Below, in pieces: positions 14,016-63,640 of a stretch of 64,000 bases of DNA. The DNA comes from Ptychodera flava (taxonomy: Eukaryota; Hemichordata; Enteropneusta; Ptychoderidae). The notes beneath the pieces were generated by a model. It worked only from the letters and a program-made list of their open reading frames with translations. It was not told where the DNA came from and did not search any database. Position 1 is the first letter of the stretch, and each line of letters opens with the position of its first letter. The position numbers and the translations under genes were made by a program. The stretch lies in contig NC_091940.1 of NCBI RefSeq assembly GCF_041260155.1, positions 31,478,875 to 31,542,874 of the forward strand, given 5' to 3'.

Positions 14016-15914
14016 TTACTTTTTATCGAAATTCAAAGATATGTTTGCTCCCTCTGGAAGATCGGCCTCAAAATGAACGTAACGGACGCTGCTCTTGTTT
14101 TCTTTATGAATTTCGACGTTCGAACATTCTTCCACCTGGCACTTCAATTCTTCGTCACACTCCTCTTTTATCGACTGTTTTCCCGGCCCAAAATCTGCCA
14201 ACTTCGCCATTTTTGGTGGCCTTCCTTGCAAAACTTTGCTCACCTTGAACTGCTGATTAAATGAGACAGTTAAGATTTTGATTATGCACGTGAACAATAA
14301 ATCGGCAAATGCACGGCATTGAAACCAGAGCAAATATAAACATTTTAGAAATGCCATCGCATGATAGAGTCCAACTACCGTCATTCATTCGGTACCACTT
14401 TTCCGTTTGTACCCAAAAGTTTATCAGTTTATACAAAGTTTATGATACCAAGTTTTCTTTTTGATCAATTATATGAATAAACGTCTCGAGTTATAATTTA
14501 CTATGTTGTAATTTATTACTACCTTGTAAGATCTAATAGCAGAACTTCGATGACCCGTTTTTTCAGCAATTAGTTGTTCGTCCATACCATCGGCAAATAA
14601 GCGAGTGGCAGCTGTGGCCCGTAGACTGTGGTTCGTATAGTATCCTTCAATTCCCGCGTTTTCGCAGAGTCTTGCCACAGTTTTCATTAGTGTATTCCTC
14701 CCAACTGGCATCGTAGAATACCAACAATCTGCGGTTATTTTCTTGGCCGGCTGCAAATAGTATACGTCTTGAGGGCGATCTGAAGGACTAAATTGACATA
14801 AACGTGTTAATTATCCGAAATCGGTTGGGGATACAATTAAAAGTTGGACTTGGTGAAGTAATATAGTATACTGATCATGTCAACGTTAACATTAAGGTTG
14901 TATGCATCTCGTTATCCATGTTTGTCAGATAATTTCAGCTATTGGCAGAATATGCCCAAGGTTTTTATTCATAAAAATATATAAGGTCACTGGGCTTAAT
15001 TTTGAAGAAAGGCGCCCTCTATCAGCCAATATTTCTAGTTCAACAAATTTTACTCAGAATATTACAAAACCACCGAAAAGTAATAATTTCGAGCGTCGTA
15101 GTGGACGACCCAGTAGACCGGACAATCGAATTAATTGTTCACATTATGCGCAGTGGAAAGCGCCACAACCAAAATAATCAAGGCACGATATACTTGGAAC
15201 ATCTACCATGGCTCTAGTAAAGTACACTTCAACACTGAAGCAAAACGATTCTTACCAAAGTTTGTTGTATGTATCATACAATCGCACAATGCATCTCTCC
15301 TTGCAGTCTGTGTTTTCGAACGCAGTTGTAACTTTACGCTTCACTTTCCTTGATGCCAAGCCACCACTGTTTGTTTTTGACACGTCCTCGGTGTATTCCA
15401 GATAATATTTCCCAACATCTCACAGTATTTTTTGCAAATTTGGCCAGGGCGTAAATTCCTGTGCTCTTGGCCCCCTCTCAAAGCAAAATTTATTCCGAAA
15501 AGGACGACCTGAGCGTCCAATAGAGTTTGTGGTGTAAAATCGCCAATCAATTTCCTGCTCCAAAATTTGTTCTCATCGTCTACACTCAACACCATGGCCT
15601 GTCGCTTTTCGTACCAATTCCTTTTGCGCTCCTTGTTTTCATGATACAATCTAAAGTATCTTTTAGCTGTTTAAAGGTGGGGGTCATTCAGAAACTGGCA
15701 GCTTTTATCCATTACTGACAAAATGGTTTTGTATACTCATCACCAATTCATACAAAGTTTGTCCAGGATAATCATTCCCATCTTTTTTCTTTATTTCAGA
15801 AACAAAGCGTGACAATGCAAAATTTAATTCATCTTTCGTCATTTCCTCGAGTTTAGGATGTATTACACAATTCCGGATAGTTTTCAGTCGGATTCGAACC
15901 ACAACATACGGCAT
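14016..15914 (-). pseudogene. Crypton tyrosine recombinase (DUF3504-like) pseudogene with introns
   Basis: The enzyme would cut and rejoin DNA through a tyrosine-DNA intermediate. Catalytic-type residues are visible: R in GGQEHRNLR, the HSLR box, H in EKTGHRS and the tyrosine of IRSYK. The C-terminal catalytic exon is 14750-14523 (76 codons, phase 0-0, acceptor TATTTGCAG, donor GTAGTA). A last exon, 14252-14016, ends KVSKVLQG... and joins in phase. Upstream, 15914-15256 holds the N-terminal and first catalytic parts, but the frame changes and stops are present, and the donor at 15255 is out of phase with 14750. It is therefore non-functional as read. Introns inside a Crypton gene are notable. 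Domestication is unlikely given the decay. Confidence 0.75.
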
Positions 15915-32900: not shown

Positions 32901-35819
32901 GACATAATCTTCTGGATTGCATGTGTTACAGCCCCATTCATCGCCTCCGTCATGGCAGTCCGGTACGCCGTCACAAACAGACTCGATCGGAATACAGCTA
33001 CCATCGTGACAGTAGTAATCGTGAACGCCGCATTGAGGGTGTCCACATTGGGCTTCGTCTTCCCCATACAGACAATCTATCACACCGTTACACAAAGAGC
33101 CAAGGGGAATAATTGACCCATCACTGCAAGGCGTATAGCTTCCATCAACGGGTGGGTAACATAATTTTTCATCACTTCCGTCAAACAGGCAATCTATCAC
33201 ACCGTTACACAAAGAGCCCAGGGGAATAATGGTCCCATCACTGCAAGTCGTATAACCCCCAACAACCGGTATGGGACAGGCCATTTCATCACTTGCGTCA
33301 TAACAGTCTGGGTAGGAATCACAAGCCTTGTATTCAGGTATGCACTGACCATTGGAACATCGGAATTCGTTGACAAGGCATTGGTAGGATGATCCACAGT
33401 ACATCTCATCCTCTCCAAACGGACAGTCAATTATTCCATCGCACATGGCGTCAAAGACAAAAATGCTGCCGTCCAAACATACAATAATGTCTTTGCCGAT
33501 CAACGTGACTGAAAAATACAATGTTCAGTTTCACAATTTAGTCTTTGGTTTGAAATTATCAGTGAAAAATGTATTATCTTTTTACATCTCAAATGGTAAA
33601 CGCGTGCTCTTCCGGCATGCCTCTGAAACTAAACATACAAGAACAAACATATATCATAGTGAAATTTATGATATATTAATAAAGTATCAACATTTTTAAT
33701 TAAATTAATTGTAATATATTCGACCAAAAGGAAATGTCATGGATGTTCATAACAATTTTATTTCTATAATCATTTTAAAGACTCTGAGACAAAAGCAGTA
33801 GCCTTTGATAGCAGATATATTTTCATTATCTTTTTTGAAGAAAAATATGAAGTTCATTTTCTTCTCCTCTGTTTTCGTCTTCCTTCTCAAGAACGTTGAA
33901 AAGTCAGGTATCAGATTCCAATTCAAAGCAACGCCTGTGGTGCAACATACAAGGTTGCTGTTGACAAATTAATTCAAGTCCGGACTGGAATTCGTTTGTC
34001 AACGATCGCACCAAACATCACAGATAAGCAAATAGTGTTGAACTAGGAATTTCGATAGAGCAGACCAAGGAACGGTATTTCACAAGAGAACAAAAAAATT
34101 CACGACCAAAGGAGGTTTGATAATTAAGACGTAGAGCTATCTCTCTTCTGGATGCCACACAAGAAATAGATATCCGTTCAAACCCCATCAACTATAACTT
34201 TATGCTTGCTTAGATAAGGTGATGTGATAATAAATGTTTCTTATGTAAAATGTCTACCGAAGTGTGGCCAGAGAATGTTTTTCAAACATTTACGATGAAC
34301 GGACAAGTTAGATTTTCGCAACTAATTTTCGAGTCACATCTCTAATATGGCCGCCGCAAAAAAAATCACACGTTTGTAAGCACCTGAATTTAATCCGCTA
34401 AATCTATCACCAAGGATTAAAAAATTGACATTTTCATAGAACATAGGACTTAATTAATCAAAAGCATCTCTCCAAATAGTTGCTGGTATTGCTGGTGGTA
34501 AGTAAAATGCAAAAAGGATACAGTCAATGGGCTTTAATTTCTACAGAACATGTAGTTAAAATTACATCTTTTTCAACTATTTCAGCTCCAGGAAAGGCAT
34601 GTTTAGTCAAACTTCTATTCAACAAGTTTTATAACCATGAACACCTACCTTGCCGTTTCTTACTAGACGTAGATGTGTCTGCTTTCCTGGGTCCTCCAAA
34701 TTGATTTCCGTTGTCCTGATGATGTGATATAAAAAATTTCCATAAATACTTGCTACAAATCCTGATCAGTCTAATTCAACTTTAGTTGTCACATTGGGCG
34801 GATAGGAATTGCCTATAGGAACTTTATCATTACGGAAAAGGTTTATCCTTCGTTAAAACCTCGATGCCCGCCAATTTTAACCCTCCATTCTGTTTACACA
34901 ATGCACATTGCAACAGGAGTAACGGAGATATATCAACGTTCGTGCCGTGATTCTAGTTGAGACAGGTTTAGTCACTTAATCGACCGGGATCGAGTGATGT
35001 AACGTTCCCGCAAATTGCGTGCATAAAGAAGGCATGGCTGAAAATTATAAATATTAAAATAAATCCCGGACACTTAATAATGCTACTCAGCTACACTCTT
35101 AAGACAGTGCTGTCCTCAAAATTGAAATGCTTCAAGATTTTCTCAAACCTTCCTCGACTAAATCATATATAAAAATAAATTACCAATGTTTAGCGACATG
35201 GCCGCCATTCCTTTCTTAAGTCTTTGGTGGGAAATGATCGATCTTTAGAAAAACTAAGACGGTGAAATTTTCTTGCTCAAAGATATTTAAATGAGCCCAA
35301 TAAGTATTAGAACAGTAGAGTATTGAAAAAATGAGAGTCTCTGTCCCTTGGTGCATTCTATCTTAAATCACACACATTTTGTGGAGGGACCGTGCTTAAA
35401 TAGATCAGTGGGTTAATGAGAAGGAGACAAACATGTCGGCGCACACACATATCTATGCTCACTTACGCCGTGGAGGTTAGGGTGATCCCTCCCCTCTGTA
35501 TATGCTCATTCACTCAAACATCCATACACACAATGCAAGTCATGATCATCGTATTTACCCGAAGCGAGGGTTTGCCAACATATTTGGCCTCCGTGGCTGT
35601 ATTTGCAGATTTCTTTGCGAACAGTGGATTCAAACCTCCAGTGATCGTTGACGTAGGATTCATATTCAGCGAAGTGGATTCTTTGATTCGGCCTCGAACA
35701 GTACTTTTGGAACCTCTAAAAGTTGCCGTTGCTTTGGTTCGATCAGCATCGCCAAGTCTGGCCAGTCCACATGCGACCACAAGCACCAGTGAGACACGAA
35801 GGATCTCGTGTAGCCCCAT
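29907..35819 (-). CDS. Gene A: secreted protein with 23 LDLa modules and a Gly/His-rich then basic tail (1309 aa predicted)
   Basis: Three exons join in phase: 35819-35559 (phase 0 out), 34715-34649 (67 nt, 0 in, 1 out) and 33508-29907 (acceptor TATTTTTCAG, stop at 29907). Residues 1-25 are a signal peptide (MGLHEILRVSLVLVVACGLA). Residues 26-114 are a Ser/Thr/Lys-rich lead. About 115-980 holds 23 LDLa modules, most with six cysteines and the calcium-binding CDGxxDCxxxxDE core. Modules 1, 3 and 4 lack C1 and C3. Residues about 995-1130 are rich in Gly, His, Asn and Asp, and the last 180 residues are strongly basic with dibasic sites such as KKRRE and KRKSR. There is no transmembrane segment, so the product is probably secreted and may be processed. 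LDLa arrays bind proteins or lipoproteins with calcium. The partner is unknown. The coding of all modules in one uninterrupted 3.6-kb exon is unusual. Confidence 0.85.
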
Positions 35820-41200: not shown

Positions 41201-44200
41201 TTAGGCGATTTCAAGTTTACCAGTCTTGTACTTCTGTCCTTTACACAGGAACATATCTTCGTCTTCGCCAAGCGGGCAATCCTTTTTACCGTCACATTTT
41301 AGCTTGGACGGCAGACAGGTGCTGTCGCGACACTGGAAATCCGTCTCTCTGCAGCCGCACTCACTCTCATCCTCGCCGTATGTACAGTCTCGGACACCAT
41401 CGCACTCCTTTGACTGTGCAATGCAGGACCCGTCATCACAGAGGAAATCGCTTTCAGAACAACACCCCACTTCGTCTTCACCGTCTGGGCAGTCAAACTG
41501 ACCGTCGCATACGGAGCTCGGGTCAACGCAGGACTTGTCCGCACAGAGTAATTCCCACTCTTCACAGAAACAGGCATGCAACATTTCGTCTTCCCCATCG
41601 TGGCAATCAGGGTGTCCGTCACACAACGAGAAATATTCCAAGCATCCACCGGTAGTACAGCTGAATTGATCTGCCAAGCATGTGCAATTTCGTTCATCCT
41701 CGCCGTTTGAACAGTCATACAGCGCATCACATTGCCAATCGGATATTATACATTTACCGTCATCACATTCGAAACCATTACAATCCGCTTCTTCACTGCT
41801 GAACTGGCAGTAGTCTTGTTGTTCATCCGAATGGTCATAGCAATCGGATATACCATCACACAGCCACGCATAAGGTATACAGAAGCCGTCGGGACATTGG
41901 AAATCGCAACAGTCGGTTTCGTCGGACCCATCCAAGCAGTCAGCTATGCCATCACAGAGTGAAAACTCGGGAATGCATTGATTACCATCGACACAGGGGA
42001 TCTCTAGATTGCTGCAGTATCCATTGTTGTCACAACCCTCTTCATCCTCACCATCAGAGCAGTCTGGAATGTCATTGCACTGTAGGCTACCATCAATGCA
42101 GTCGCCATTTCCGCATAGAAAGCTGTCAGACTGACACGAGTTACAGCCCAATTCATCACTACCGTCACTGCAGTCAGGCCCGCCATCACACGCTAAGTCT
42201 GGATGGATACATTCACCACTGGTACAGAGAAATTTGTCACTCGTGCATGTAGAAGATTTGCAATGGCTTTCATCCTCCCCATCGACACAATCACTAACAT
42301 CGTCGCATACTTTGCTTGCCGAAATACACCAACCATCACTGCATCTGTACTCTGAGTCGAGATGGCATTCTTTACGTTCGTCTTCCTCTTCCTCAGCATC
42401 ACCGTGATGATTGCTTAGGTCATCATCATCATCATGATCATGATCATGATCATGATCATGATCATCATCATCATCACTGTAATCACTGTAATTGTAATCA
42501 TCCCAATGTTGTTGTTCTCCCATTTCTTCATATTGTTCTTGTTCTTGTTCTTCTTCCTCTTGTTCTTGTTCTTGTTCTTGTTCTTCTTCCTCTTGTTCTT
42601 GTTCTTCTTCATTTTTGCCGGCATCTTCTCCCTGTCCACCATCTCCTTCCACTTCCTCTTGACAATTTTCCTCGTCGATGCCATCCCAGCAGTCATTTAC
42701 ACCGTTGCATGCCAAATTTTTAGGAATGGAAAGTCCGCCGCTGCATTTTATTAAGTGTTCTTCATTAGTAACAGACTCACAATCTTTCTCATCATCTCCA
42801 TCGGCACAATCATTCTTTGCATCGCAGACCGATGCACCAGAAATGCAGGCTCCATCAGAGCAGGTAAACTGATCTGAAAGGCATAGGCAGCCACGCTCAT
42901 CTTCGCCTGTTTCGCAGTCTGGAGCGCCATTACAGACCAATGGCTGTGCTATACAATCTCCGTTTGCACAGCGGAAGCTGCCAGCTGAGCAACCATTACA
43001 GCCACATTCATCAGTTCCATCAAAACAGTCAGGGTGGCCATCGCACACGGCGCAAGGTGAAATACAGCTACCATCCGGACAATAGTAATCGTTTTCTCGA
43101 CAAACACTCCCACCGCAAACTGCTTCGTCTTCGGCACTCTCACAGTCCACACGTCCGTCACAGAGATTACCGATAGCGATGCATTCTCCCGAGGCACAGT
43201 TGTACTCGTGAAAACCACACATGGGACAGTTGCGTTCATCAAAACCACATTGACAGTCCTGGTATCCGTCGCAGACGAGACCTTGTAGTATGCATAAACC
43301 ATCACTGCATCGAAATTCGTCGGAGAAGCAACTGTCCTGTTGAGAACAACGAGACTCGTCTTGACCGCAAGGGCAGTCATGCCACCCATCGCACTTGAAG
43401 TGGGAAGGAATTGTACTCCAATCCGCACAGGACATACCATCGACGCCTGACGGGAAACCTGCAATTTCGTAGCAAGCAAGATAGGGAGTTATTTATTAAT
43501 TTGAAAGAGATTGATGCATAAGTTGTCGCTCAGATATGATGGCGTTTAATTGTTTTGCACATTCTCAAATCCATACCTATGCGTAATACTGGTCGTTTGG
43601 AAGTTTCACAACCTCTTTTCGACTGATAAACTGTACATTTATTTGATTTCAATGAATTTAATATTTTTATTATGTACGCCTGGAAGTTGTTTTAATGTTT
43701 GTATCAAATAGCTCTACGTCAGTCTATTTGATCAAAGCAATGCCAAAGCTGTTTACTATACCTTGTCCGATAAGCATTGAGCGCTTCTCAAGTCCTTCAT
43801 TATTCCTCGAGATCTGTGAGGTGGGTAAAACATAATGTTCCAGTCAAAATAGGGTTAGACCCACCACAAATTGCAACAGAATTTTTTTCTTCGGAATGCA
43901 TTTCAGAGAGGTACCCAGAACAACATATTAAAAGTTTACTCGATTCCACCTTGGGGAAATATGTCTAATTTGCATAAATCAAATATGGCGGCCAACCATC
44001 CAACAAAATAACATAATTTGCTATATATCGCATGTTAAACAAGCTATTTCAGTGATTTCAAAGTCTGACACTAGTAATTTGGCCCAGGGAATTATTTTGG
44101 AGGTATAATGTTCCTTATAGGTACTTTCCTAATTTGCATAATTCCAATATGGCGGCCAACATTCCTACAAGGGACATTTTCGGTCATATACCACATATTA

Positions 44201-47200
44201 AACAAACTATTTCAGTGATTTTAAAGTTAAAAGTATATTTCTTTGGCATGGATAAACGATTTTCGAGATGCTACGATTTGCATTGGTAATTTGTTAATTT
44301 GCATAAATACAATATGGTGGCCAACATTCCTACAAAGGACATTGTCGGTCATACACCACGCATTAAACAAGCTATTTCTTTGATTTTAAAGTTTTAATAT
44401 TTTTCTTGGGTATGAAGAAACACTTTTAGTGGCTCAAGTTTTACAAAGGCCCTTTGATAATTTGCATAAATTAAATATGGCTGCCATATTAATGGCCCAT
44501 GGCTTAATAGCTACTAATATAAATAACGGTTTTGGTATAGTTTTTAGCACTAGGAAACTATCAAGAAGGAACTGTTAAATCCTTGGACATTCATTTTTAT
44601 TTTTTTTTATTTTTCTGTATATGACGACTGTTAATGTTAATGAATGTTAGTCTTCTGAATGATATATTCTCTTTTTAAATATAACATTGAATTTATCTGT
44701 GTGTGGCATTTTCGTAATTTGTAAGGGTGTTTAACACTCTACAGTGTCAAAGCATGTAATCTGTAATGTTTACTGTTAAAAAAGGGGTGTTCAAAATCTT
44801 TAGTTTTTAATTTAGACTGAACCCCCTTCTTATGGATGGGTGCATCTTTATAAGATCCCTTAGATGATAGGCAAGAAGTCATCACACATACCAGCAAAAT
44901 ACAATAAACACAACAAAGCTAAAAAAACAGAAAAAATGATATGACCGAAATAAAAAGTGTCGTAATACTCACAAATTGAAACTTAGCACTATTGCAAACA
45001 ATGTCAGATTCATAAAAACTTTCTGGACACACAAACTCAAAAAAATATGAAAACTGCATGCTTTAGCAAAGACTTACAATTAATCCAGACACAGAATTCA
45101 ACTATTACACAATACAAAGAAGTACATCTTGAGTCATTTTTCCAAGTGTCATTTTGCAGATGTACATGTTTGTATCGTGTAACAGTTGGATTCTGTTGGG
45201 CTAATGAGTTGTTTGAATTAATTTTAAGTTTTTGCTAAGCATGCAATTTTCAATTTTTGTGAGTTTGTGTGTTGATCAAGTTTTTAAGAGTTTGACATTG
45301 TTTGCATCAGCGCTAAGTTTTAATTTGTTTCTATTGTGGCATGTGTTATTTTTGGTCACATTATTTTATTTTTTGCATTGTTATTATCTTTGTTGTGTTT
45401 ATTGTATTTTTGCTGTTACATGTGATGACTTCTTGCCTATCATCTAGGGGGATGTACCAAAGATGCACTCGTCCATAAGGAAGGGGTTCAGTCTAAATTA
45501 GAAACTAAAGATTTTGTCCACGACTTTTTTAAAACAGTAAACATTAAAGATTACATGTTTTAACACTGTAAAGTATAAAGCACCTATAAAAATCACAAAT
45601 AATGCCGTACACAGATGAATCCAATGTTATATTCAGAAAGAGATTATTATTAGATGACTAACAATCATTAACGGTTGTCATATTTAGAAAAATCACAAAT
45701 AATTAAAATTGCATGACTTTCTTACAACTCAATAGTAAACGCACATCAACATATACGTATTTTAATCCGTTCGGAAGTCATATATGTAAGTCTACCAAAT
45801 TTGCTTTAACATTCTTTTCAAAATACAATATATTTATGGGGTATTTTAACGAATTCAGGTATCACAGACACCTATTAAAATAAACTTTTATTCGTAAATG
45901 GATCGTTATTGTATGTAAATTTTCTATATTTTTAAAAATAAATGTTCAAGGCCTTAATGTGGAGCTGCACGTTGCCAACACAGTTTTTTCGAAGGAATAT
46001 TCTCATCTAAGATGACAAGGAAACCCTTACAAACTATTTTGTGAAATGTAATATTTCACTTGAAACAAGAGTATATCCTCATTCTAAAATGGAATGGGCT
46101 GAACAACTGACACTCAAAAAGTGCTTTAAATCATGGTTAGCAAAATAAAAATGCCTCTAATTCAAAATGTAAGAATTTTATTACAAAACAAAATAGTTGT
46201 TTTGTTATATAGCATTTAAAAACATAATGTGAAAATTTCAGAAAATATGACCCAGCCAGAACAGTTATATTCTTTGGAAATCTTGAAATTCGGATAAAAG
46301 GGAAGCAGGAATTCGGGTGATTTGCATACATTTGCATACATTAACCCTTCTATATCATGCTATCTACTTACGACTGCTTGCCAAGCTAAAAGGTGAACCT
46401 AACCAATTTTAATCTTGGGTTAACAAATTAATAAAAATTTGAAGAATATTTTCAAAATACAGTGCGTTGGGTGCTGTGCCCTCTTGACAGTTTTTTCTTG
46501 ATATTCCTATTCCTAAAAACTCTACCATAACCTTATTTATATTAGAAGCTATTTGGGCATTAATTTGGCAGCCATATTTAATTTCTGAAAATCATCAAAG
46601 TGTCTTTTAAAAACATTGAACCACAAAAGGTGTTTCTTCATGCTCAAGAAATATAATTAAACTTCAAAATGGCTGAAATAGATTGTTCAATACATTTTAT
46701 GACAGAAAATTTCTTTTGTATTGGATTTATGCAAATTAACGAAGTGCCAACGCAAATCATTGCACCTCAAACATCATTTGTCCATGCCAAAGAAATATAC
46801 TTTTAACTTTGAAATCACAGAAATAGCTTGTTTAACCCTTTGACTGCTGTAATTTTTTACACCAAAATTTTAATGCAATATTTTACCAATTTCTGTGAAC
46901 ATTTCTGTACGTTTTTTTCATAATTTTGGACCAAATGGATATCATTTTTCAGCAGCTACAGATTTTTATCAAAATTTTGGCAAAAAGCAGAAAAATTGAC
47001 TGTGGTACATTTTATAAAGTTGACAAAAATAGAGTTTGGCGCCCAAAAGGGTTAATACATGGTATATGATAGAAATGTCTTTTGTAGGTATGTTGGCAAC
47101 CCTATTGGAGTTATGCAAATTAACGAAGTACCTAAGCAAATCATTGCATCTCGAAAATTGTTTGTCCATGCCAAAGATATACACTTTTAACTTCGAAATC

Positions 47201-48447
47201 ACAGAAATGGCTTGTTTACCCTTTGACTGCTGTAATTTTTTACACCAAAATTTTAATGCAATATTTTACCAATTTCTGTGAACTTTTCTGTACGGTTTTT
47301 TCATAATTTTGGACCAAATGGATATCATTTTTCAGCAGCTACATATTTTTATCAAAATTTTGGCAAAAAGCAGAAAAATTGACTGTGGTACATTTTATAA
47401 AGTTGACAAAAATAGACTTTGGCGCCAAAAGGGTTAATACGTGGTATATGACAGAAAATGTCTTTTGTAGGTATGTTGGCCACCATATTGGAATTATGCA
47501 AATTAACAAATTACCTATGCAAATCATAGAATCTCGAAAATCGTTTGTCCATGCCTAAGAAATATACTTTTAACTTTAAAATCACTGAAATAGCTTGTTT
47601 AATACGTGGTATATGACCGAAAATGTCTTTTGTAGGAATGTTGGCCGCCATATTGGAATTATGCAAATTAACGAGGTGCCTATATGAAACATTATACCTC
47701 TAAAATGATTCCCTGAGCCAAATAACTAGTGCCAGTCTTGAAATATCTGAAATAGCTTGTTTAATATGTGATATATAGCCAATTATGTTATTTTGTTGGA
47801 TGGTTGGCCGCCATATTTGATTTATGCAAATTAGACATATTTCCCCAAGGTGGATTCGAGTAAACTTTTAATATGTTGTTCTGGGTACCTCATTAAAATG
47901 CATTCTGAAGAAAAAAATTCTGTTGCAATTTGTGGTGGGTTAGGTGCCAAAATCTCGTAGATTGACTGGACTAAAAGTTTGAGTCAAAATCTTGTAGATA
48001 TCTGGATGTGTTTTTCAATTGCACTGATATATGCACCACCGTGTACCATTGGTCTAAGGAGTCGATTTTTATATTATTTATCCGATTTGCTTCTCAGACA
48101 GAAAGTTTATAGTGATCGGGTGAGTAGTTTCAATTGGAATAAAATATTAAAGCCATCCACTGTGTATTTTCTAGACGACAACAACAATGCGTTATGAAGG
48201 AATGACTTACAAACTTGTCGGGAAACAGATACCAGAAGCCACTCTGGCTTCCAAAGTTGCTTGGAGCAAATGGCGCTCGACGGACCGTGTCATCGTAAAC
48301 GCCAAGATGAACATCCTCACTCTTGTAAACTTTGGATTCTGGGAACGAAGCGCCCCATCGTCGTTGAATGCCGCCTGGCCTCAAAGAGAACGGTTCAACG
48401 GCAACACTGCGTAATGCAACGCATACCAAAAACGCCAACTTCAACAT
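41201..48447 (-). CDS. Gene B: secreted protein with 17 LDLa modules and an acidic Glu/Gln-Asp/His linker (848 aa predicted)
   Basis: Three exons join in phase: 48447-48211 (79 codons, donor GTAAGT), 43813-43762 (52 nt, phase 0 in, 1 out) and 43458-41201 (acceptor ATTGCAG, stop at 41201). Residues 1-17 form a signal peptide (MLKLAFLVCVALRSVAV). Seven LDLa modules span about residues 107-360. An acidic linker of about 95 residues follows, with EEQEQE repeats and a DHDHDHDH tract. Ten more modules run to about residue 832. Modules 1 and 7 lack C1 and C3. There is no membrane segment and the tail is short. The exon plan (signal exon, mini-exon, one giant LDLa exon, same phases) matches gene A, showing common descent. 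Likely role: extracellular calcium-dependent ligand binding, with possible metal binding by the DH tract (inference). Intron 1 is almost wholly a 4.08-kb palindrome. Confidence 0.85.
42376..42660 (-). repeat. Coding microsatellite-like linker in gene B
   Basis: Within the giant exon, GAA/CAA-type codon repeats encode Glu/Gln runs (about 42535-42615) and a GATCAT repeat encodes alternating Asp-His (about 42430-42465). They keep the frame open and separate LDLa modules 7 and 8. Confidence 0.85.
46834..47054. mobile_element. piggyBac-type MITE in the right arm, copy 1
   Basis: TTAA precedes CCCTTTGACTGC at the left and AAAAGGG precedes TTAA at the right, which is the piggyBac target and terminal pattern. 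The unit of about 220 bp interrupts a tandem unit of the palindrome. Confidence 0.7.
47215..47437. mobile_element. piggyBac-type MITE in the right arm, copy 2
   Basis: Nearly identical to the copy 380 bp to the left, and in the same position relative to the tandem unit. It probably arose by duplication of unit plus insert rather than a second insertion. Confidence 0.7.
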
Positions 48448-50764: not shown

Positions 50765-53611
50765 GTTTACAATATAATACAACTGTCATTTTAACATAAT
50801 TGACAAGAAAAGATCAGACGAGTGTAAACACGTTCCGTAGTCTTGCAGGTTAACCACTGGCGATGTGTTTTGCTGACGTGGAAGGATTAATTTTGGAATA
50901 ATATCATGTAAGGCAATTATTGACAAAGAAGTTTTTATCACAAAAAGAGACTCTGCCTCTTGATTGGCTAACAGTTTCTCTTGATTGATAAGCAAGTGTC
51001 TGTTCGATGCTAAATAGGATTGGTAGATTTTCTGTGACACATTCGTTTTGTTCTAACAGCTGTGCTGCTTCACAACGGTTGAAGAATTGCCTCGAGGCTT
51101 TGCCGAGCAGTTTGCTCGGTAGTAGAGGGAAATTTGATTCCTAGGTTTATGCAGCTAGTTGGGACGATGCTAATGGAAGAGAGAAATTTGGGACGCCTCG
51201 ACGATAAAACTTTGCTATATCCAGACAACAGCAAATTGACCTCGCATTTGTACAGGAAGATGCCAACTTCAGAGAGAGCACAATCTAAGGAGCATCAAGT
51301 TCAAGATTTCCGTATCCAGACGCATTTTGGCGAGTTAACTAAATATTCCACAAAATAATTCCAGTGGAGTATCTACAATTAAGCAATATGGATGTAAACA
51401 GATCCAGTTAGCAGCAGTAAAGTATCGTTATATAAGCCACAATAGCTACGAATGTGTAACAAACCGATCTCAAAATATCCTCACTGAGTTTTCCAAGAAT
51501 TTTCTTTGAATTAGACCCATTGAAGACTGAAAAAGTGTACAACACTGTCATAAGTGTCGAAAGTAGCATGTAAATTCAAATGTTTTCAAATTATTTTAGA
51601 TTTTCCACCGTCTTAAACCAATCACGTTGCAGAGAAAATAAAGATTACAACAAGAAAATATAAGCCATGATGTTTTGTGCATTCAAGTAAATGACATTAT
51701 GCTTGTTTCTTGGATGATCACGATGTGTATGCGCGCGAAATACTGCATTTTATGTATTTTTCAATGGCGGCACCATTTTACGAGTGCGGCACCCGTTTAT
51801 TATTTAACCAGTTTAAAAGTGTCGGCATGGTCCAAATCAGCAAGCAGTGATACTTCTATACACGTCATTCAGTTAGTGCATTTACACTAACCAATTTGGT
51901 TTGAAAATGAAATCATTAAAATAATGCATGAAATTTGCGGCTCTTGTGGCTTTAGAGAATTCATTGACAAGTCGAAGGGCAGAGCACGTTTATGAAAGAT
52001 CCCTGTTTTTCATCGGGCTCAGGCCGTTAATCATAGCGTTGGACGCAACACAGCATTGTTATACTCAGAATCAAGTGTTTTGCAATATTCAATTACTTTT
52101 TGTTAGTTTACTGACTAAACATAAAAAATATTAGATGGGTTCGCCTTCTAGCATTACAAACAGTCATAAGTTGAGTGAAAAAGAAGTTTAAAATTATGCA
52201 AATGTATGAAAATTACCTGCTTTCCCGGCTTCATTTTTCTCCGTTTTTCAACATTTAACTGGGTCAAATTTTGTTAAATTTTCATGTTATGTTCTTCAAG
52301 TACTATATATACAAGAAAACGACAATTTTTTTGTAATAAAGTTCTTACATTTAGGAGTGAATGCCGAACGAATTCACGTACAATTCGTAAAGTCATATAC
52401 AATAATTTCAAAGAAAGCACACGCCTAGAAATTTACCTCAGACAAAGTTGTACTATTTTTGATTGAATCTCAAAGCGCCACCACTGTAACTGCGCGCGCG
52501 ACCCTGGTTGCATTGCTTACAGCACCCCCCATGATGCAAATAGCTTCGAGTTCGCTTTATTTCTGCGAATTATTCACTCCATTTATGGGAATATACATGC
52601 ATTACATTGTATTAGGCTCATTCAGGTTGCAAATCTAAGCGTGCGCGTACGCAACCATCCACTACCCACCATCCTCTTCATTTGGTAGGTCACTGTACAG
52701 GTGAACATACTCCGGACGAGCAAAACAGATTTTCATTGCACCTCCATGACGTTATGGACAGTGAAAATTAAAAGAAATGAGACATGAACAACAAGAGTAC
52801 ATTATGTCGGGTTTGTTTATTGTGTGTACAATTCTGTTCAAGAATGGACAGCCATTGATCTTGTGATGGAAATCTTGGATCTTTGGTCTTCGTTTTCATA
52901 GCGCTCAGCATGTGCGGTGGTGTCACACCAATTTTAGTAGGAAAAGTAACTCTCTTCACGGTTAACTGTAAAATGGAGCCCATTAATGTTAAAACAAACT
53001 CGGGGTGTTTCGAATCTGTAATGACTTCATTCGCATCAATTCTAACGTTACAAGGCCCATTGAAATTGTAGCAACGAGCATGAATTTCTGCAAAACACCA
53101 CTGGGGACGCTATTTTCATCACTGACTGCATACTGCCAATGACTGACCTGACACCTCTCAACATGATTGTGCCTCTTACTGTTTTAAAATATGAACATTT
53201 TGCTCAAAGCTACTGTCGTAGCCTATGAGAGATTAATTATTGGACTTGAGCCAAATTTATATGTTGCGTGGGACAGCTTTTTGCGTTGCTCGGTATCTAA
53301 GAACATTCCTATACTTACGACTGAAAGCAAATATATCAAAGGGTGGTGGCTATTCTTTCAGATTTTCTTGGACAGTATCCAAATGGAACGACAGCACGCT
53401 CTTAATAAAGGATTTCATTGTCCATGTTGCTGGACGTAACAAATGGATGCTATTACAGGGCAGTGGGAGAGGTAAGAGAGTTTTAGGAAGATTTTCATAA
53501 AAACCTTTAGTTTTCAACACTTACAAGAAATCTTTCGAGGAAAACATCGATACCATCAAGCATTCGGTGTCAGCGTGATATTAAGTGATGGTTTGATAAA
53601 CGCTGTTGGAG

Positions 53612-53612
<1 letters not shown>
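50765..53612. other. Non-coding stretch
   Basis: 2.8 kb with only short open frames without recognisable domains. No RNA gene or transposon end was found. Confidence 0.4.

Positions 53613-53674
<62 letters not shown>
53613..53674. repeat. (TA)n microsatellite bordering the hammerhead palindrome
   Basis: About 31 TA units running directly into the inverted repeat at 53676. Confidence 0.95.
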
Positions 53675-53675
<1 letters not shown>

Positions 53676-53748
53676 CGGATGAATAAAATTGCACACGTCT
53701 ACTGATCTGCTTGTATATTTTCTGTTTATTCTGTTGGTAATTTTGATA

Positions 53749-53781
53749 CAACGTTTCGTCCTAAAAGTAGGACTTCATCAG
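53749..53781 (-). ncRNA. Hammerhead-ribozyme-like motif, minus strand
   Basis: Mirror copy of the plus-strand motif in the other palindrome arm, identical in sequence. Confidence 0.5.
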
Positions 53782-53861
53782 GTTGAAGATGTCGTTTATG
53801 TGTGGCGCAGATGGAATGTGGCCACTTTCCATCTGCGCCACACATAAACGACATCTTCAAC

Positions 53862-53894
53862 CTGATGAAGTCCTACTTTTAGGACGAAACGTTG
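53862..53894 (+). ncRNA. Hammerhead-ribozyme-like motif, plus strand
   Basis: CTGATGA (53862-53868), stem II GTCCT/AGGAC, GAAAC (53886-53890), loop GTT and GTA. The predicted cleavage follows GTA. Stem I complementarity in cis is not obvious, so activity may need a dimeric fold or be absent. Confidence 0.5.
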
Positions 53895-54024
53895 TATCAA
53901 AATTACCAACAGAATAAACAGAAAATATACAAGCAGATCAGTAGACGTGTGCAATTTTATTCATCCGCTATTACCAAACCACGCTACGAACAACACTGGG
54001 AGCTATCTGTACATCTCAAGTATA

Positions 54025-54189
<165 letters not shown>

Positions 54190-55560
54190 AAACTGGGTTG
54201 ACACACACTACCACACCTGGTTGTTAGGTTCCAAACGTATTTATTATACCTCAAACACAACGTTTCGCTCTAAATTTAGAGCTTCTTCAGGTGTTTTCTA
54301 CAATAAAAAGTACGAACATGAAAATTACAATGGTTGAATTGTGTAGGAAAACGAGCAATGTAGAGTTGTAAGTCTGTGAGAATCTGGAAATGTACATGAA
54401 TGACAGGAGAGAGACTAAAAAAATTACAATGGTTGAATTCTATAGGAAAACGAGCAATGTGAAGTTACAAGTATCTGGAAATCTGTAAATGTACATAAAT
54501 GACAGGAAGAGACTAACCTCGACTCGAGGTTGTGAGTACGGTCAAAACTGTCTGGACCGACGTCGAGAGCTTGAAATTGGCGCGCTGAAGTCCAGGGGGG
54601 TTCCTTTAAATACTCAAAAGCTGGTATATGGGAGCGCTATTGAAGACTATGTAAATTTTGGGCTAATATTTAGGCCAACTGGGGACAGTGTGTCAAATTT
54701 TTTGATCCATTGTGATTCTAAATGTTTGCGTAGTTTGTCATCCTGTTTGTTGACTTGTATGATGCCAATTACTGAAATGTCACTGATATTGTGTTGATCA
54801 GAATTAAAATGTATGGCCACCGGGCTTTCTTTATTTTTGACGCACTGAGGAGAGGTACGTGGTTGTTGAAACGAAGTCGGAGAGATGTTTTGGTTTTTTC
54901 CCAACAATACTGTTTGTTGCAGCGTTGACATGTAAGAAGGTATACGACGTTTTTGCTGTTGCAGCTGATGTCATTTCTGATTGCGTATGTTTTGTTGTTG
55001 ACCGTGCTTGGAACTGTGATGTATTATGGGTATATTTGCAAATGTTGCAACCCCTCGTAGATTGACATTTGGTGAAACGGGGCTGGATTCACCGGCGTTG
55101 TTAATATTCGAGCGGACAAGGAGGTCTTTGAGGTTAACATTGCGTCGATATGATATAATTGGTATGTTAGGGATGGCTTCTTTACATCTTTATGACTTAT
55201 GGAGTGTTGGGAGATTCGAGGATATGATGAATTTCAAGTTAGGGAGACGGGGATTATATGTCGAGACTAGTGGGATTCGACAGTCTCCCTGTTTGTTTTT
55301 GTACTGAAGGAGAGCCGGCCTAGGGATTGATTTCGCTCTATTTATTTGTTCTTTGACGAGGTTGTGAGGGTAATCCCGTTCAATCAGCGATTGTTGTAGA
55401 ATGTCGAGGCGTGTATCACGCCATTCTGGCTCCGAACAAATGCGACAAATGCGTATTGCCAGGCCGTAGGGGACACCTAGTTTCATATGTCTGGGATGTG
55501 CTCCCGGGGGTGTGCTGACTGAAAATGTAAATATTGATGGGTATCAGTTATTTCGGTGAA
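54190..55560 (-). mobile_element. Penelope-like element copy 1 (fossil), minus strand
   Basis: Parts seen in order on the minus strand: a reverse-transcriptase thumb-type region (LGVPYGLAIR, IPLVSTYNPRLPNL; about 55490-55200), a GIY-YIG endonuclease-type region (HFNSDQHNIS, LESQWIKKFDTLSP; about 54930-54650), a 3' part with a tandem duplication of about 95 bp, and a hammerhead-like terminal motif (54290-54255). It is 5'-incomplete, lacking the main polymerase domain, and looks broken. The copy is old enough to differ clearly from its partner. Confidence 0.85.
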
Positions 55561-58370
55561 ACTAAAACATCTCTCAGACTTCGTTTCAATACCACCTCTC
55601 CTCAGTGCGTCATAAAAAAGATTTCCCGGTCACCATACATTTTAATTCTGATCAACACAGTATCAGTGATATTTCAATAATTGGCATCATACAAGTCAAT
55701 AAACAGGATGACAAACTACCCAAACATTTAGAATCACTATGATCAAAAAACTTGACACACTGTCTCCAGCTGGCCTAAATATTCGCCCAAAATTACATAG
55801 CCTTTAACAGCGCCCCCACATAACTTAATATTTAAAGCCGTATCACTTCGCTCATGGGTATAGCCTATTGTTATAGGATTTGGCCGGAGTCCTGGTCGGC
55901 TACCTGTAGTCGTCGCTTTCCCTTACTCTCACCACATACGTCACCATACCACCCATACCCCAATCACTCAAATCTTCTAAGCCCAAACCAGAATATTTAT
56001 GCAGCACAACGATTTTATTTATTCGTTATTAAAGCATTATCATATACACCGACATACTGATTATTGACACCAGTAAAATTCTCCATTCGCCAATATCTGC
56101 ATAACTAATGCACGAGTCGGTTGTTTAACCTGTGAGTAACTTTCAGCAAAGTCTTATAATCGTTCACCCATCCCCTATCCTGCTATATGTGTGTCATAAT
56201 TTAGAATATATCATCTCTTTCAAACGCCCTAGTGAATCCAGTGAGTTCATCCATTTTTCGATAGGCATTTACATTGGAATTAGGGGTTTCTACAAGCTGT
56301 GCCAGTCTATCCGCCGGAGCTGCTGGCTGCATTACTTTTGATAGTTGCATGTAATATCTTGCTGTCTCTTCCGCCCTCCAGCCCACGTGGGTCATGAGTG
56401 ATTTTTGCATATCTATGCACATTCGAGGTTTGTTTGGCTCGATTGTAATCGACATTACAATAAATGGTGGTGGGTCTATACCGACCCGCCCGGCGGTTGA
56501 AATTGCTCCAGTTTGCAATCTATCTGTGATAGTCTTTGATATATTATTAAAAGTCAACAAAATCTCGGCAAGTTGGGTTATTTGTAAAGACTTTACTTGG
56601 TGGCGTGGGACTATCGTACGCTGTGCCTTTGAAAGTGCCTCGGTATGGTTGGAAGGGTTAAGATATGCTTACACCATCATTTACCCACTCCATAATTTGC
56701 TCGAAATTATCTGCGGCTCTTGCGATTGATGACCAGGCGTCCCTGTGCTTATGTATCTCCCCTGCTGTAAACTCGTCCGGGTTACGCAAGGCAAGCATCA
56801 ATGGGGAGGCTTTTTGTTTCCCCGTTACTACATCCTGGATACTAGGACAGCATTCAGTGGGGCCCTGTCGAGGGGCACCCTCAAAAGTCACCCACGTTGT
56901 CGTAGTCCTGACGGGAGACGTCCCCCTGGTGAGTTTTTCCCAGCTTAACGGTACTTACTGCGAAAGTGAAGAACAGGGGGAAAGCTTTCACAAATTGAGT
57001 CTTACAACCTGTAAACTTTTGAGGGTACCCCTAGACAGGACCTCGGAAACCGAGGCTGCATAAGAATGCAAAAGGGTGCTATGGACCCTCCCTGCCTAAA
57101 GGGTAGGTGTACTTATAGGGAGAGCTGTGAACGAGGTCAGTGTCCGAAACTACACATTCTACTATGAGGATGTCCACTTCGAGTGGGACCGGGATTTGAT
57201 AATGGCAAGGGGAACATGTGCGTTGTCTCTGTATGGATTTCTGACTTTGGGAGAGGTATGAGGGACTAACTTTTCTGATGATACATTTCTACGTTTGTGA
57301 CAAGAGGGGAAATTCAACCTCAGATTGGTCTCCCGGAATATGAATATTCCAACATGCAAACACAACTCGTCCAATCACGTCATAGAACACAATACAAGTT
57401 GTATTATTTGCAAATGAACACAAAAAAAGAGAGAAAGACCTTATTTATTATCTTGAACTTGAAAGAACAAGGAATGTGCGTACAAGTGCGTAATAATTTA
57501 CCACACATTTAATCCGAATTCAGCAAGCACACTAGATTCTTTTTGGACATGACCGGGCCATATGCCCAAGCTCGTGACATGTAAAACACTTTATTTCATC
57601 GAGAGTTTTTTTTTTTTTGCGGGCATAAGGTGCATATCTGACGTCAGCAAATTTTTTGTATGTGTGGTTTGTGTGTCACATAAATTTCGATACTTTAGCT
57701 GCTATTTCTTCTTCTTCCTTGTTTCCTAGGAGTATAAACAATAGCGTCCGCCTCTTCTCCGAAGTCGTTAGCCTCGAATTGCGCCAAGACTGCGCGAAAC
57801 CTGGGAAGTTTGGGGTGGGCTGCGACAGTTGCTCTGTCCACTAACGCTCGAAGGGCGCTTTTTAGCTGTAGTCTCGTGGTAAGAACCGGTCACAGTCCCT
57901 CCGGGCCGTGAACCGGTGTATGAGCCAACTCCATTACTTTAGCAAGAGCGTCTTCAACGGATGCCGACTCGGCCATGTCCTGCAGTTTTTTTATCTGCTT
58001 CTTCAGAGCCGCAATCTCGTCCGCCTGTGGATACGGTCCAAACAAAGATAGTCACATATAAACTCTTCCCTTTGTTACTCGCACACCACCAGAATGTAAA
58101 ACATACAGGTATACATCTTACCATTGTATCTCAAATTATGCATACGCTCACAGTGAACCTTAACGGGTTGACTGCCTGGCTAGGGCCCGGGCCGTAAATC
58201 TAAGACAGAAGCATTTTTTTTTTTTTTTTCGGTCTCGAGATCTCTTTTTTTGATAGTAATAGTTTTTTTTTAATTTTGTAAATCTAGTACAAAATCGTTT
58301 AATTTAATTTTTTTTTATTAGGCCCCACAGTAACCTTTGGGCGGCACCCAAGCCGAACCCTTGTAATTCC

Positions 58371-58467
58371 TGGCGCCCTCGCAGCAACCCTTCAGCGGAT
58401 TAACTGCCCGGCCATCTGTGAATAATAGCACCCTCGCAGTAACCCTCGGCGGATTGACTGCCCGGCA
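58371..58467. repeat. Two tandem copies of a 40-bp CCCTCGCAGTAACC motif
   Basis: Two adjacent copies (58371-58412 and 58428-58467) share GCCCTCGCAG, CGGCGGATT and GACTGCCCGGC. A third copy lies at 61343-61382 on the far side of the satellite. Confidence 0.8.
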
Positions 58468-58544
58468 CTCCATCCATGGCCAGAAGTCGGGATTTTTTCA
58501 TTTTAGACATTTTTACATTTTAGTAGTGCATGTTTGACATGTTT

Positions 58545-61300
58545 AGGTCGGAACTAACAGCCGAACTAACGTGACCAAAAAAGCCAAACTTGCAAACCTA
58601 TCGTGTATCGTGCAGACCCAATATCCGCACCTATCGTTTCTAAAATGTCTAACGTGTATGCCAGGTTGGAACTAACGTGCCTAAAATGCCAAACGTGCAA
58701 ACCTATCGTGTATCGTGCAGACCTAACATTAAAGAACCTATGTCTAACATGTATTGCATTTTAGGGCGTACAAATAAGTCCTATTCTATCATGCCAATCG
58801 TGCAAACCTATCGTGTAATCGTGCACGCCAAACATGGATGCACCTATCGTGTCTAAAGTGTCTAACGTGTATATCATGACTGCACGATTGACATATGGTA
58901 CCATTCGACTTATCTGGACATACACGTTAGACATTTTAGACACGTTAGGTCCGTACACGTTGGGTCAGCACGTTACACGATAAATTTGCACGATTGGCAT
59001 GATAGATTTTGACTCTTGGACAACCTAAAATGACATACACGTTAGACATTTTAGACACGTTAGCTCCGTAAATCTTAGGTCGGCACGTTATACGATATGT
59101 CTCAAGATTCACGTGATGGCCTACAAACACGGTAAGGTCTAACTCTATCATGCCAATCGTGCAAACCTATCGTGTTAACGTGCCGACCTAACGTGTATGC
59201 ACCTAACGTGTCTAAAATGTCTAACGGGCATGTCATTTTAGGTTCTCGACATGGGTCAAAATCTATCATGCCAATCGTGCAAACCTATCGTGTATCGTGC
59301 AAACCTAACGTGTACGCACCTAACGTGTTAGTCTGGCAGAGACCCTGCGATTCGCGTTCTCCCCTGTTGGAACACGCGCGCCCTTCAGAGACGCGACGCG
59401 AATCCCAGGGTCTGGACGTTTCTTGCAAGCGACCGGTCGGATTTCTGCTGATCCGGTACTTTATAGAACACCACACACCCGTTAATCAAAACAAAAATGA
59501 CAAGTAGCAATTCCAAATAAAATGAAAAATAAAAACATACCACGTATATAGGTCTACCGGCTACTAGTATATATTCTCTCCGCCCAGTTAGATAGGTGTT
59601 TCTTTTGAGGTCACTACCCTTATGAATATTCATACCCTTGCAAAAACGGACAGTCGCTGTGTCTGGCAGCGCGTGTTCACACCTGCATAGCGTAGTCTTC
59701 GAATGCAGGCCCATCGTGGGCGCGCACAAAACAAGGCACAGCGACTGTGGAGAGTCTACTAACGTGTCTAAAATGTCTAATGTGTATGTCATTTTAGGTT
59801 CTCGACATGGGTCAAAATCTATCATGCCAATCGTGCAAACCTATCGTGTATCGTGCAAACCTAACGTGTACGGACCTAACGTGTCTAAAATGTCTAACGT
59901 GCATGTCATTTTAGGTTCTCGACATGGGTCAAAATCTATCATGCCAATCGTGCAAACCTATCGTGTATCTTGCAAACCTAACGTGTACGGACCTAACGTG
60001 TCTAAAATGTCTAACGTGTATATCATGACTGTACCATTCAACTTATCTGGAGACCCTAAAATGACATACTTGTTAGACATTTTAGACACGTTAGATCCGT
60101 ACTCGTTAGGTTTGCACGATACACGATAGCTTTGCATGATTGCCATGATAGATTTTGACTCGTGGACAACCTAAAATGACATACACGTTAGACATTTTAG
60201 ACACGTTAGCTCCGTGAATCTTAGGTCGGCACGTTATACGATATTTCTCAAGATTCACGTGATGGCCTACAAACACGGTAAGGTCTACCTCTATCATGCC
60301 AATCGTGCAAACCTATCTTGTATCGTGCAGACCTAACGTGTACGCACCTAACGTGTCTAAAATGTCTAACGTGCATGTCATTTTAGGTTCTCCACATGAG
60401 TCAAAATCTATCATGCCAATCATGCAAACCTATCGTGTATCGTGCAAACCTAACGTGTACACACCTAACGTGTCTAAAATGTCTAACGTGTATGTCATTT
60501 TAGACATGACTCCAATTTCTATCATGCCAATCATGCAAACCTATCGTGTATCGTGCAGACCTTACGTGTACGGACCTAACGTGTCTAAAATGTCTAACGT
60601 GTATGTCATTTTAGGTTCTAAACATGGGTCAAAATCTATCATGCAATCGTGCAAACCTATCGTGTATCGTGCAAACCTAACGTGTACGCACCTAACCTGT
60701 CTAAAATGTCTAACGTGCATGTCATTTTAGGTTCTCCACATGAGTCAAAATCTATCATGCCAATCGTGCAAACCTATCGTGTATCGTGCAGACCTTACGT
60801 GTACGGACCTAACGTGTCTAAAATGTCTAACGTGCATGTCATTTTAGGTTCTAAACATGGGTCAAAATCTATCATGCCAATCGTGCAAACCTATCGTGTA
60901 TCGTGCAAACCTAACGTGTACGCACCTAACGTGTCTAAAATGTCTAACGTGCATGTCATTTTAGGTTCTCCACATGAGTCAAAATTTATCATGCCAATCG
61001 TGCAAACCTATCGTGTATCGTGCAAACCTAACGTGTACACACCTAACGTGTCTAAAATGTCTTACGTGTATATCATTTTAGGTTGTCCACATGACTCCAA
61101 AATCTACCATGCCAATCATGCTGACCTATCGTGTATCGTGCAAACCTAACGTGTACGGACCTAACGTGTCTAAAATGTCTAACGTGCAGACTTTTACAGT
61201 GTTTAGTCATGCACGTTTGCCTTACACGTTTGGGTTCTATAATGTACAATGGCATACAACTCCCCATAGCACGATAGCTTCAACAATGTGAAACGTGCAT
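58545..61300. repeat. 117-bp satellite array in alternating orientation
   Basis: The unit contains CTAACGTGTCTAAAATGTC, ATCATGCCAATCGTGCAAAC and CTATCGTGTATCGTGCAAAC blocks. Plus-oriented runs alternate with minus-oriented runs at about 58900-59115 and 60050-60270. Most units are 117 bp (39 codons), giving long in-frame translations that are not genes. A 431-bp insert interrupts the array. The array lies between the leader exon and body of the DIRS-order element. Confidence 0.9.
59329..59759. mobile_element. 431-bp insertion with 8-bp target duplication in the satellite
   Basis: TAACGTGT flanks both sides (59321-59328 and 59760-59767), whereas an uninterrupted unit has it once. Ends TAGTCTGG and the complement AGAGTCTA form a weak inverted repeat. 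Two internal hairpins exist (ACCCTGCGATTCGCG region and ACAGTCGCTGTG region). An 8-bp duplication suggests hAT or a similar superfamily. Confidence 0.75.
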
Positions 61301-61342
61301 TTTACCAACTACTGGCCATAGCTCCGGCACCCAGTAAATCAT

Positions 61343-61382
61343 GGCACCCTCGCAGTAATCCTCGGCGGATTGACTGCCTGGC
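61343..61382. repeat. Third copy of the 40-bp flanking motif
   Basis: GGCACCCTCGCAGTAATCC ... GACTGCCTGGC, the direct repeat of 58428-58467 on the other side of the satellite. Confidence 0.8.
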
Positions 61383-62315
61383 CTTATTATTTTAAAACAA
61401 AACAAAACAACAAAAACAGATACTGGTAACAGACTATCGTATAGCGCTATAGTGGACTTGCCGTGACCATGACACGGCCACGGCACATAGTACCACCAGG
61501 TGCGCGTAACAAGCATGCAAATTCAGAATGTAAGCAAGCCGAGCTGACAGATTTGTGCCGTCGCTGGCGTACTGGACAGGTGGAGACCTGCACTGTAATA
61601 GTAAGTAGCGAAATCCACGTGGCGAAGTTAGATAAATCTAATTCTTAAAAACAAACACAACCTGCCAACTACCACTAACGGGACCATATCAGGTGCACGA
61701 TACGCCAGAATGCCTATAGTGGTGGCCGAGGCCTAACAGACATGTGAGAATTATGCACTATCACAACTGGTAAGAAACAAATCAATGACGAGAATTATAC
61801 ACGGTCTAAACGCCCTACACAGAGTCCTAAGGCCTGGCTGAACAAATAAATTCAATGGGTGAGACCCGGACGTACCTGCGAGCTTTTATTTTCAGCAGGT
61901 GGTGTTCCCTGTGCATCATTGATGGCTGTAGCTGGCTGCCGTTGCTGCCCCGAAGTGCTCGGGCCTGGAAGAATATCCCGGGGTTGGTGACTTGCTTGGT
62001 TGGTATACGCTGCAACAAACGTTTGACCAGCCGTGGCGGGTGCCGGTTTAGACGAAGCCATGGTGTCGGGTGCTGTTGTCTTCGCTGTGTTGCAATGAGG
62101 GAGATAGTCCGTATGGTATGTTTCCTATTTATACCCCCTTAATTTACATATAGCGTACTAATATCGCTGCGTGATGCGGCTTTGAATACCAGCTTTTGAG
62201 TATTTAGAGGGACCCCCCCCCTGGACTTCACGCGCCAATTTCCAGCTCTCGGCGTAGGTCCAGACAGTTTTGACCGTACTCACAACCTCGAGGTTAGTCT
62301 CTCTCCTGTCATTTA

Positions 62316-62571
62316 GGCCAAAGTAATAATTCTTTGTTTTCGTCCACTCTAAATGGGAAAAGGTACGCGTCTAAGCGGCTGAAAAACACACACAAGAAAT
62401 TAACACAATGTAATTTGATTGCAGCAATAAAAAATTGTAACAAAATTTTAGTTCAGAAAAGCTAAGCGGTCATGTCCTAAATTTCCTATTCAAATACATT
62501 GTGTGTGTTTTTCATGAAAACCTTAAAAACCTACGCGTGGGGACGCAAAACAAAATTTAATTACTTTGGCC
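62316..62571. mobile_element. Harbinger-type MITE, 256 bp, in Penelope-like copy 2
   Basis: Ends GGCCAAAGTAAT and ATTACTTTGGCC are flanked by TTA (62313-62315 and 62572-62574). Penelope-like copy 1 has the unfilled site (CATTTATGTAC on the complementary strand), confirming insertion. Non-coding. Confidence 0.85.
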
Positions 62572-62776
62572 TTATGAACATTTACAGATTTTCAGATACT
62601 TGTAACTCCACATTGCTCGTTTTCCTATAGAATTCAACCATTGTAATTTTTAGTCTCTCTCCTGTCATTCATGTACATTTCCAGATTTTCACAGACTTAT
62701 AACTCTACATTGCTCGTTTTCCTACACAATTCCACCATTGTAATTTTCATGTTCGTACTTTTTATTGCAGAAAACA

Positions 62777-62813
62777 CCTGAGGAAGCTCTAAATTTAGAG
62801 CGAAACGTTGTGT
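62777..62813 (+). ncRNA. Hammerhead-like motif of Penelope-like copy 2
   Basis: CTGAGGA fits the CUGANGA core. A perfect GCTCTAAATTTAGAGC stem-loop follows, then GAAACGTTGTG. The base at the predicted cleavage site is G, which is not permissive, so activity is doubtful. Copy 1 has the same layout at 54290-54255 on the minus strand. Confidence 0.4.
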
Positions 62814-62936
62814 TTGTGGTGTAATAAATACGTTTGGAACCTAACAACCAGGAATGGTAGTGTGTGTCAACTCAAGTTTTTTCTATCTTCACCCCACTCC
62901 ACGCTCCACTGGGGATCACCTGAATTCCTACAGTTT

Positions 62937-63640
<704 letters not shown>

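Follow-up and report, generated by a model that had tools for sequence, protein, structure and literature searches.

A 292-bp palindrome from the hemichordate Ptychodera flava (contig NC_091940.1), at positions 53676-53967 of the 64,000-nt stretch that was analysed (hereafter the window), is best read as one insertion of a Penelope-like element (PLE), in which two severely 5'-truncated 3' ends of ~146 nt each are placed head to head within a (TA)n tract. We give this reading a probability of about three in four. That estimate refers to the head-to-head PLE reading, and the observed part of the reading consists of the palindrome, its unequal 3' ends, the TA flanks and a neighbouring head-to-head pair. 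The features of the palindrome and its immediate surroundings are as follows:

53615..53674, no strand: (TA)n tract on the left side of the palindrome, interpreted as its insertion target
53676..53821, sense on the minus strand: left arm, a 5'-truncated element end with a short 3' end that lacks a tail
53753..53781, minus strand: hammerhead-like core of the left arm, CTGATGA-A-GTCCTACTTTTAGGAC-GAAAC, with an extra A after CTGATGA
53818..53825, no strand: junction GTGGCCAC, bordered by the mismatch T53817/T53826
53822..53967, sense on the plus strand: right arm, a 5'-truncated element end
53862..53890, plus strand: hammerhead-like core of the right arm
53968..54026, plus strand: AC-rich extension of 59 nt, confined to the right arm, the proposed PLE 'tail'
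54027..54187, no strand: (TA)n(CTAT)n(TA)n tract separating the palindrome from the neighbouring pair

The palindrome is interrupted by a single non-complementary pair, T53817/T53826, which gives arms of 146 nt. A first-pass annotation of this DNA had reported a perfect inverted repeat of 141 bp, and this was borne out, 53676-53816 and 53827-53967 being exact reverse complements. The 10-nt spacer that it had placed between them (TGTGGCCACT) proved to be self-complementary apart from its outer T/T, and as it contains the self-complementary 8-mer at the junction the arms effectively touch. A scan of the window for exact repeats (seeds of 20, the 15 longest being listed) placed the palindrome at the top of the exact non-simple inverted repeats with 141 bp, the runner-up among the matches listed having 74 bp. 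Self-comparison of the window (145 matches at E <=1e-5 with dust on, identities being considered for matches of at least 60 bp) recovered a maximum identity of 96.83% outside the palindrome. The earlier statement that every other repeat pair has diverged thus holds for whole pairs, but not for the internal exact direct stretches of a minisatellite in the window, which reach 87 bp. The insertion is probably young, as just one of its 146 pairs is mismatched. Among the options raised in the first-pass annotation a recent insertion into (TA)n is the likeliest.

Several other features of the window were recorded in passing. An inverted repeat pair at 43859-44366 and 47434-47940 shows 92% identity over 508 aligned positions, with a 74-bp exact match inside. 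Two long minus-strand ORFs (29907-33524 and 41201-43492) encode 23 and 17 LDL-receptor class A repeats (PF00057), respectively. A further minus-strand ORF (14469-14810), possibly Crypton-like, matches the tyrosine recombinase profile PF00589 (E 5.4e-10), with DUF3504 just under its cut-off.

The flanks of the palindrome are asymmetric: (TA)n adjoins it on the left, while on the right 59 nt of AC-rich sequence precede the (TA)n(CTAT)n(TA)n tract. Alignment of the two copies from the core onward accordingly makes the 3' end of the right copy 59 nt longer than that of the left. This asymmetry bears directly on the possibility, also raised earlier, that the palindrome is an artefact of assembly or of a fold-back read. 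Missing adapters or template switching are known to generate palindromes, and such an event could have yielded this one. However, after a fold-back the sequence on the right should continue as the complement of the left flank, and instead 59 nt without a counterpart on the left intervene ahead of the next TA tract; the flanks differ, and there is the one mismatch near the centre. An artefact is therefore very improbable.

As a short non-coding inverted repeat adjoining TA repeats, the palindrome might also be taken for a small DNA transposon of palindromic form, or for a MITE-like fold-back element, bounded by terminal inverted repeats. Inspection by eye recognised no target-site duplication at the palindrome beyond the TA repeat, and a transposase-cut element fits poorly with both the one-sided extension and a core that recurs in a neighbouring pair with endonuclease-like remnants, so that we regard such an origin as highly unlikely.

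This neighbouring pair, which adjoins the palindrome at 54190-62941, was identified by self-comparison and alignment as a second head-to-head arrangement that is more diverged and carries the same core motif. The pair, its subdivisions and its outer flank can be described thus:

54190..55560, minus strand: left copy, 5'-truncated, with PLE-like decayed coding sequence, a core at 54262-54290 and no tail; its upper boundary is approximate
54647..55023, minus strand: frame-broken, decayed GIY-YIG-like endonuclease region of the left copy
55190..55543, minus strand: ORF of the left copy resembling the Penelope reverse transcriptase (RT) thumb
55559..55822, plus strand: right copy, first piece, with the endonuclease region; it may start a few codons earlier
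62186..62315, plus strand: right copy, second piece, beyond a 6.4-kb insertion
62572..62941, plus strand: right copy, third piece, which contains a core (62778-62806) and, at 62868-62941, the longer 3' end
62939..63046, no strand: (TA)n tract on the right side of the pair

The right copy of this pair has been broken up by two insertions, and over three collinear stretches the two copies show identities of 86.6, 89.0 and 87.9%, the first of which includes the TA tract. The position of their junction is approximate, as the plus-strand copy may start a few codons before 55559. The copies begin at different positions of the element, the left one in the RT thumb and the right one in the endonuclease. 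To judge from sequence resemblance, their decayed coding regions look like a PLE RT thumb and a GIY-YIG endonuclease, with weak support from profiles. When the endonuclease pieces were joined with X they matched PF01541 with an E-value of 0.00099 and 19.8 bits, under the cut-off of 22.6; in single frames the region gave no GIY-YIG match and returned weak, sub-threshold matches to other families (best zf-AN1, E 0.0044, 17.6 vs 27.9 bits). The minus-strand ORF at 55190-55543, which we take to be Penelope RT thumb-like, found no match in Pfam at E <=0.1, and its X-joined form gave only an unrelated match (E 0.17). A protein search for its relatives in viral contigs yielded 12 pattern matches, of which none was confirmed.

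The two insertions in the right copy have features of their own. The 6.4-kb insertion (55823-62185) has a possible ATA duplication and inverted-repeat-like ends, with TTAAAGCCGTATCAC lying ~10 nt inward of the left end and GTGATGCGGCTTTGA at the right end. It contains an array of ~117-bp repeats in both orientations (58.6-61.2 kb) and a short minus-strand ORF (57532-57675) with a CCHC zinc knuckle (PF00098, E 2.4e-6). The second insertion (62316-62571) is a MITE-like sequence of 256 bp with terminal inverted repeats starting GGCCAAAGTAAT and a possible TTA duplication.

The palindrome is devoid of coding sequence, and its membership in the PLEs, a link already suggested by the first-pass annotation, hence derives from the core motif that it shares with the second pair and from its position and head-to-head layout. 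Both pairs are bordered by (TA)n tracts, one of which is common to both, which agrees with the AT-rich or simple insertion sites expected of PLEs; this arrangement makes it probable that a single TA microsatellite received both insertions. The divergence of the second pair (~87-89% identity), together with the ability of palindromic arms to convert one another, might suggest that the palindrome represents two separate, older PLE end insertions homogenised by gene conversion. This would, however, require two insertions at the same place and with the same truncation point, and we consider it hardly probable beside the single head-to-head insertion.

The one-sided 3' extension recurs in the second pair, where by counting the right copy's 3' end is 58 nt longer than the left's. 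A first reading of the alignment suggested sequence homology of the two extensions, but a shuffle control made the similarity marginal, their alignment score being reached in 94, 114 and 266 of 2000 shuffles under three scorings. The tails are thus identified by position and not by sequence, and their marginal resemblance might fit two different families. As in the right copy, the left copy of the second pair ends in CAGTTTCTTA before the TA tract, and its 'missing tail' could therefore be an internal deletion. We propose that these ~60-nt extensions resemble the optional 'tail' of PLEs, even though the 59 nt seen here exceed both the 31 bp given for the Penelope tail in the relevant passages of PMC3846280 and the 30-40 bp given in those of PMC11167929.

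The core motif reads CTGATGA-A-GTCCTA-CTTT-TAGGAC-GAAACGTT and occurs once in each arm of the palindrome, followed by GTA. The CTGATGA...GAAAC core and GTA site that had been noted for each arm are therefore present, at 53753-53781 (minus) and 53862-53890 (plus). That earlier description mentioned neither the additional A behind CTGATGA nor the neighbouring pair, nor the 59 nt by which the right arm is extended. The cores of the second pair, at 54262-54290 (minus) and 62778-62806 (plus), have the stem GCTCTA/TAGAGC. A loose version of the core pattern occurs 6 times in the window against 0.64 expected. The form with the extra A and a stem II of 4 bp occurs 4 times (the two identical arms account for two of these), whereas 100 resampled windows gave a mean of 0.02; the canonical core with a 4-bp stem II is absent from the window (mean 0.03 in the same resampling). 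The string CTGAWGAAG...CGAAACGTT is found 3 times against a mean of 0.00 in 100 shuffles, and the fourth core copy reads CTGAGGAAG. The stem II sequences of the palindrome and of the second pair differ at 2 of the 6 base pairs, each altered on both sides, which supports a conserved stem as far as a comparison of just two families allows. In viral contigs an exact scan for the core motif found nothing, and 9 degenerate matches were all set aside as apparent chance occurrences, their inner segments, read in the register of the four copies of the window, pairing over 1-2 bp as against 6-7 bp in those copies.

In the hammerhead consensus CUGANGA and GAAA directly abut stem II, and the cleavage triplet follows the NUH rule. 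All four copies in the window (4/4) depart from this by the A inserted between CUGANGA and stem II, and so may differ from the minimal type I hammerheads of PLEs. In the palindrome arms the GUA register offers a stem III of 2 bp and a stem I of 0 bp, and the GUU register a stem I of 2 bp; their longest stem I run, of 4 bp, falls in the AAC register, which has neither a stem III nor an NUH triplet. In both copies of the second pair a 6-bp stem I is available in the GUU register. The Rfam hammerhead models recovered nothing at gathering threshold in the whole window. In a lenient search the best hammerhead match in the palindrome was Hammerhead_3 in the right arm (13.9 bits vs a cut-off of 48.5, E 1.3), the extra A being placed as an insertion in the alignment; the left copy of the second pair matched HH9 (12.6 bits vs a cut-off of 52, E 8.8), and its right copy matched no hammerhead model up to E 10. 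For RNA transcribed across the whole palindrome a single long hairpin is predicted (-257 kcal/mol), in which both cores would be hidden. The lenient search of 53600-54400 returned 49 rows, all of them (49/49) under their cut-offs and 34 belonging to microRNA families; the microRNA matches (best MIR5998, over the palindrome, E 5.5e-16, 74.6 bits vs a cut-off of 180) were dismissed as what any long hairpin would yield. The idea that each arm carries a competent ribozyme is thus not supported, in view of the lack of helix I in the GTA register, the A beside stem II and the Rfam scores. From its sequence the motif is hammerhead-derived or hammerhead-like and probably inactive in the palindrome copy, and it would have been carried along as part of the pLTR or 3' end of the PLE.

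Comparison with described systems places these features in context. The accounts of minimal type I hammerheads of PLEs in parts of PMC7761336 and PMC11167929 share with the present motif the CTGANGA...GAAAC string, stem II, the location in a PLE-like end and a minimal or missing stem III, and differ in that stem I is lacking from the palindrome arms in the GUA register, and in that no Rfam hammerhead match approaches the cut-off. PMC11167929 also reports, in its relevant portion, that the hammerhead of a PLE did not cleave without its protein. The metazoan retrozymes, as treated in portions of PMC7229834, where PLEs are named as candidate helpers, are likewise short non-coding repeats with hammerhead motifs; those are, however, tandem and have canonical type I ribozymes, unlike the inverted pair and non-canonical core found here. 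The closest likeness is to the inverted pLTRs of the Pen2a_Av type from Adineta vaga, which in the sections of PMC3846280 that deal with them combine head-to-head ends, a palindromic inverted junction, an optional tail on one of the pLTRs and a simple AT-rich target. Both pairs in the window show inverted pLTR-like ends with an extension on one copy, the tail again being recognised by position. In the A. vaga cases described in those sections an ORF or captured DNA lies between the pLTRs, whereas here ~146 nt per arm are all that remain. Inverted pLTRs and short 3' extensions are also counted among the peculiarities of PLEs in the relevant text of PMC8969392. As head-to-head is already the commonest of the inverted Penelope layouts observed, according to the same sections of PMC3846280, the paired form alone would not define a new mobile unit; the palindrome is a minimal new example of a published arrangement.

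Little is known about the mechanism of PLE transposition, as is stated in a passage of PMC11167929, but the in vitro results given there suggest how such pairs may arise. A PLE protein cut and extended both strands and preferred AT-rich DNA, and reverse transcription had two internal start sites, the interval between them being the tail. By extension, the PLE endonuclease would here have cleaved the TA tract on both strands, and each cut end would have served as a primer for reverse transcription within the element RNA. The right-hand cDNA would have begun at a start site that takes in the tail, and the left-hand one at a start site ~60 nt further inside. Both cDNAs would then have stopped early, and their 3' ends would have annealed via the self-complementary 8-mer at the junction; annealing at that point would force an identical truncation and hence a perfect palindrome. 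The 8-mer by itself is no proof of annealing, since any exact inverted join has a palindromic centre. Like the PLE origin, the age and the inactivity of the insertion, the two-sided priming and the annealing are the interpretive part of the reading, and for two-sided priming taken alone, which rests on two examples, we would put the odds somewhat below even.

The head-to-head Penelope palindromes were interpreted differently in the pertinent sections of PMC3846280, namely by self-priming on an antisense template. This rival concerns the mechanism and not the origin: the same PLE would have inserted, and its first cDNA or antisense template would have folded back at its end and been copied onto itself. 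Such snap-back copying accounts directly for near-identical arms with a common truncation point. A complete fold-back copy would, however, have given both arms equal 3' ends, and the 59-nt extension is present on the right only; an incomplete copy could accommodate this, but the unequal truncation of the second pair would still be left unexplained. Given the unequal 3' ends of both pairs and the unequal 5' truncation of the second, two separate cDNAs are favoured, and self-priming appears doubtful for the present loci.

Thus, in conclusion, the palindrome first offers a caution, in that a hammerhead-like core string alone does not make a ribozyme. With respect to the PLEs as a family, it may be put forward tentatively that they insert by using both strands of a single break to prime reverse transcription on two RNA templates, and that head-to-head pairs are the direct signature of this process and not of self-priming; with similar reserve, that signature would include perfect palindromes wherever the cDNAs meet at a self-complementary microhomology. 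The two pairs of the window connect the cutting and extension of both strands and the two start sites, as seen in vitro in the relevant parts of PMC11167929, with the head-to-head pairs that had been put down to self-priming (PMC3846280), and they suggest a simple genome-wide test.
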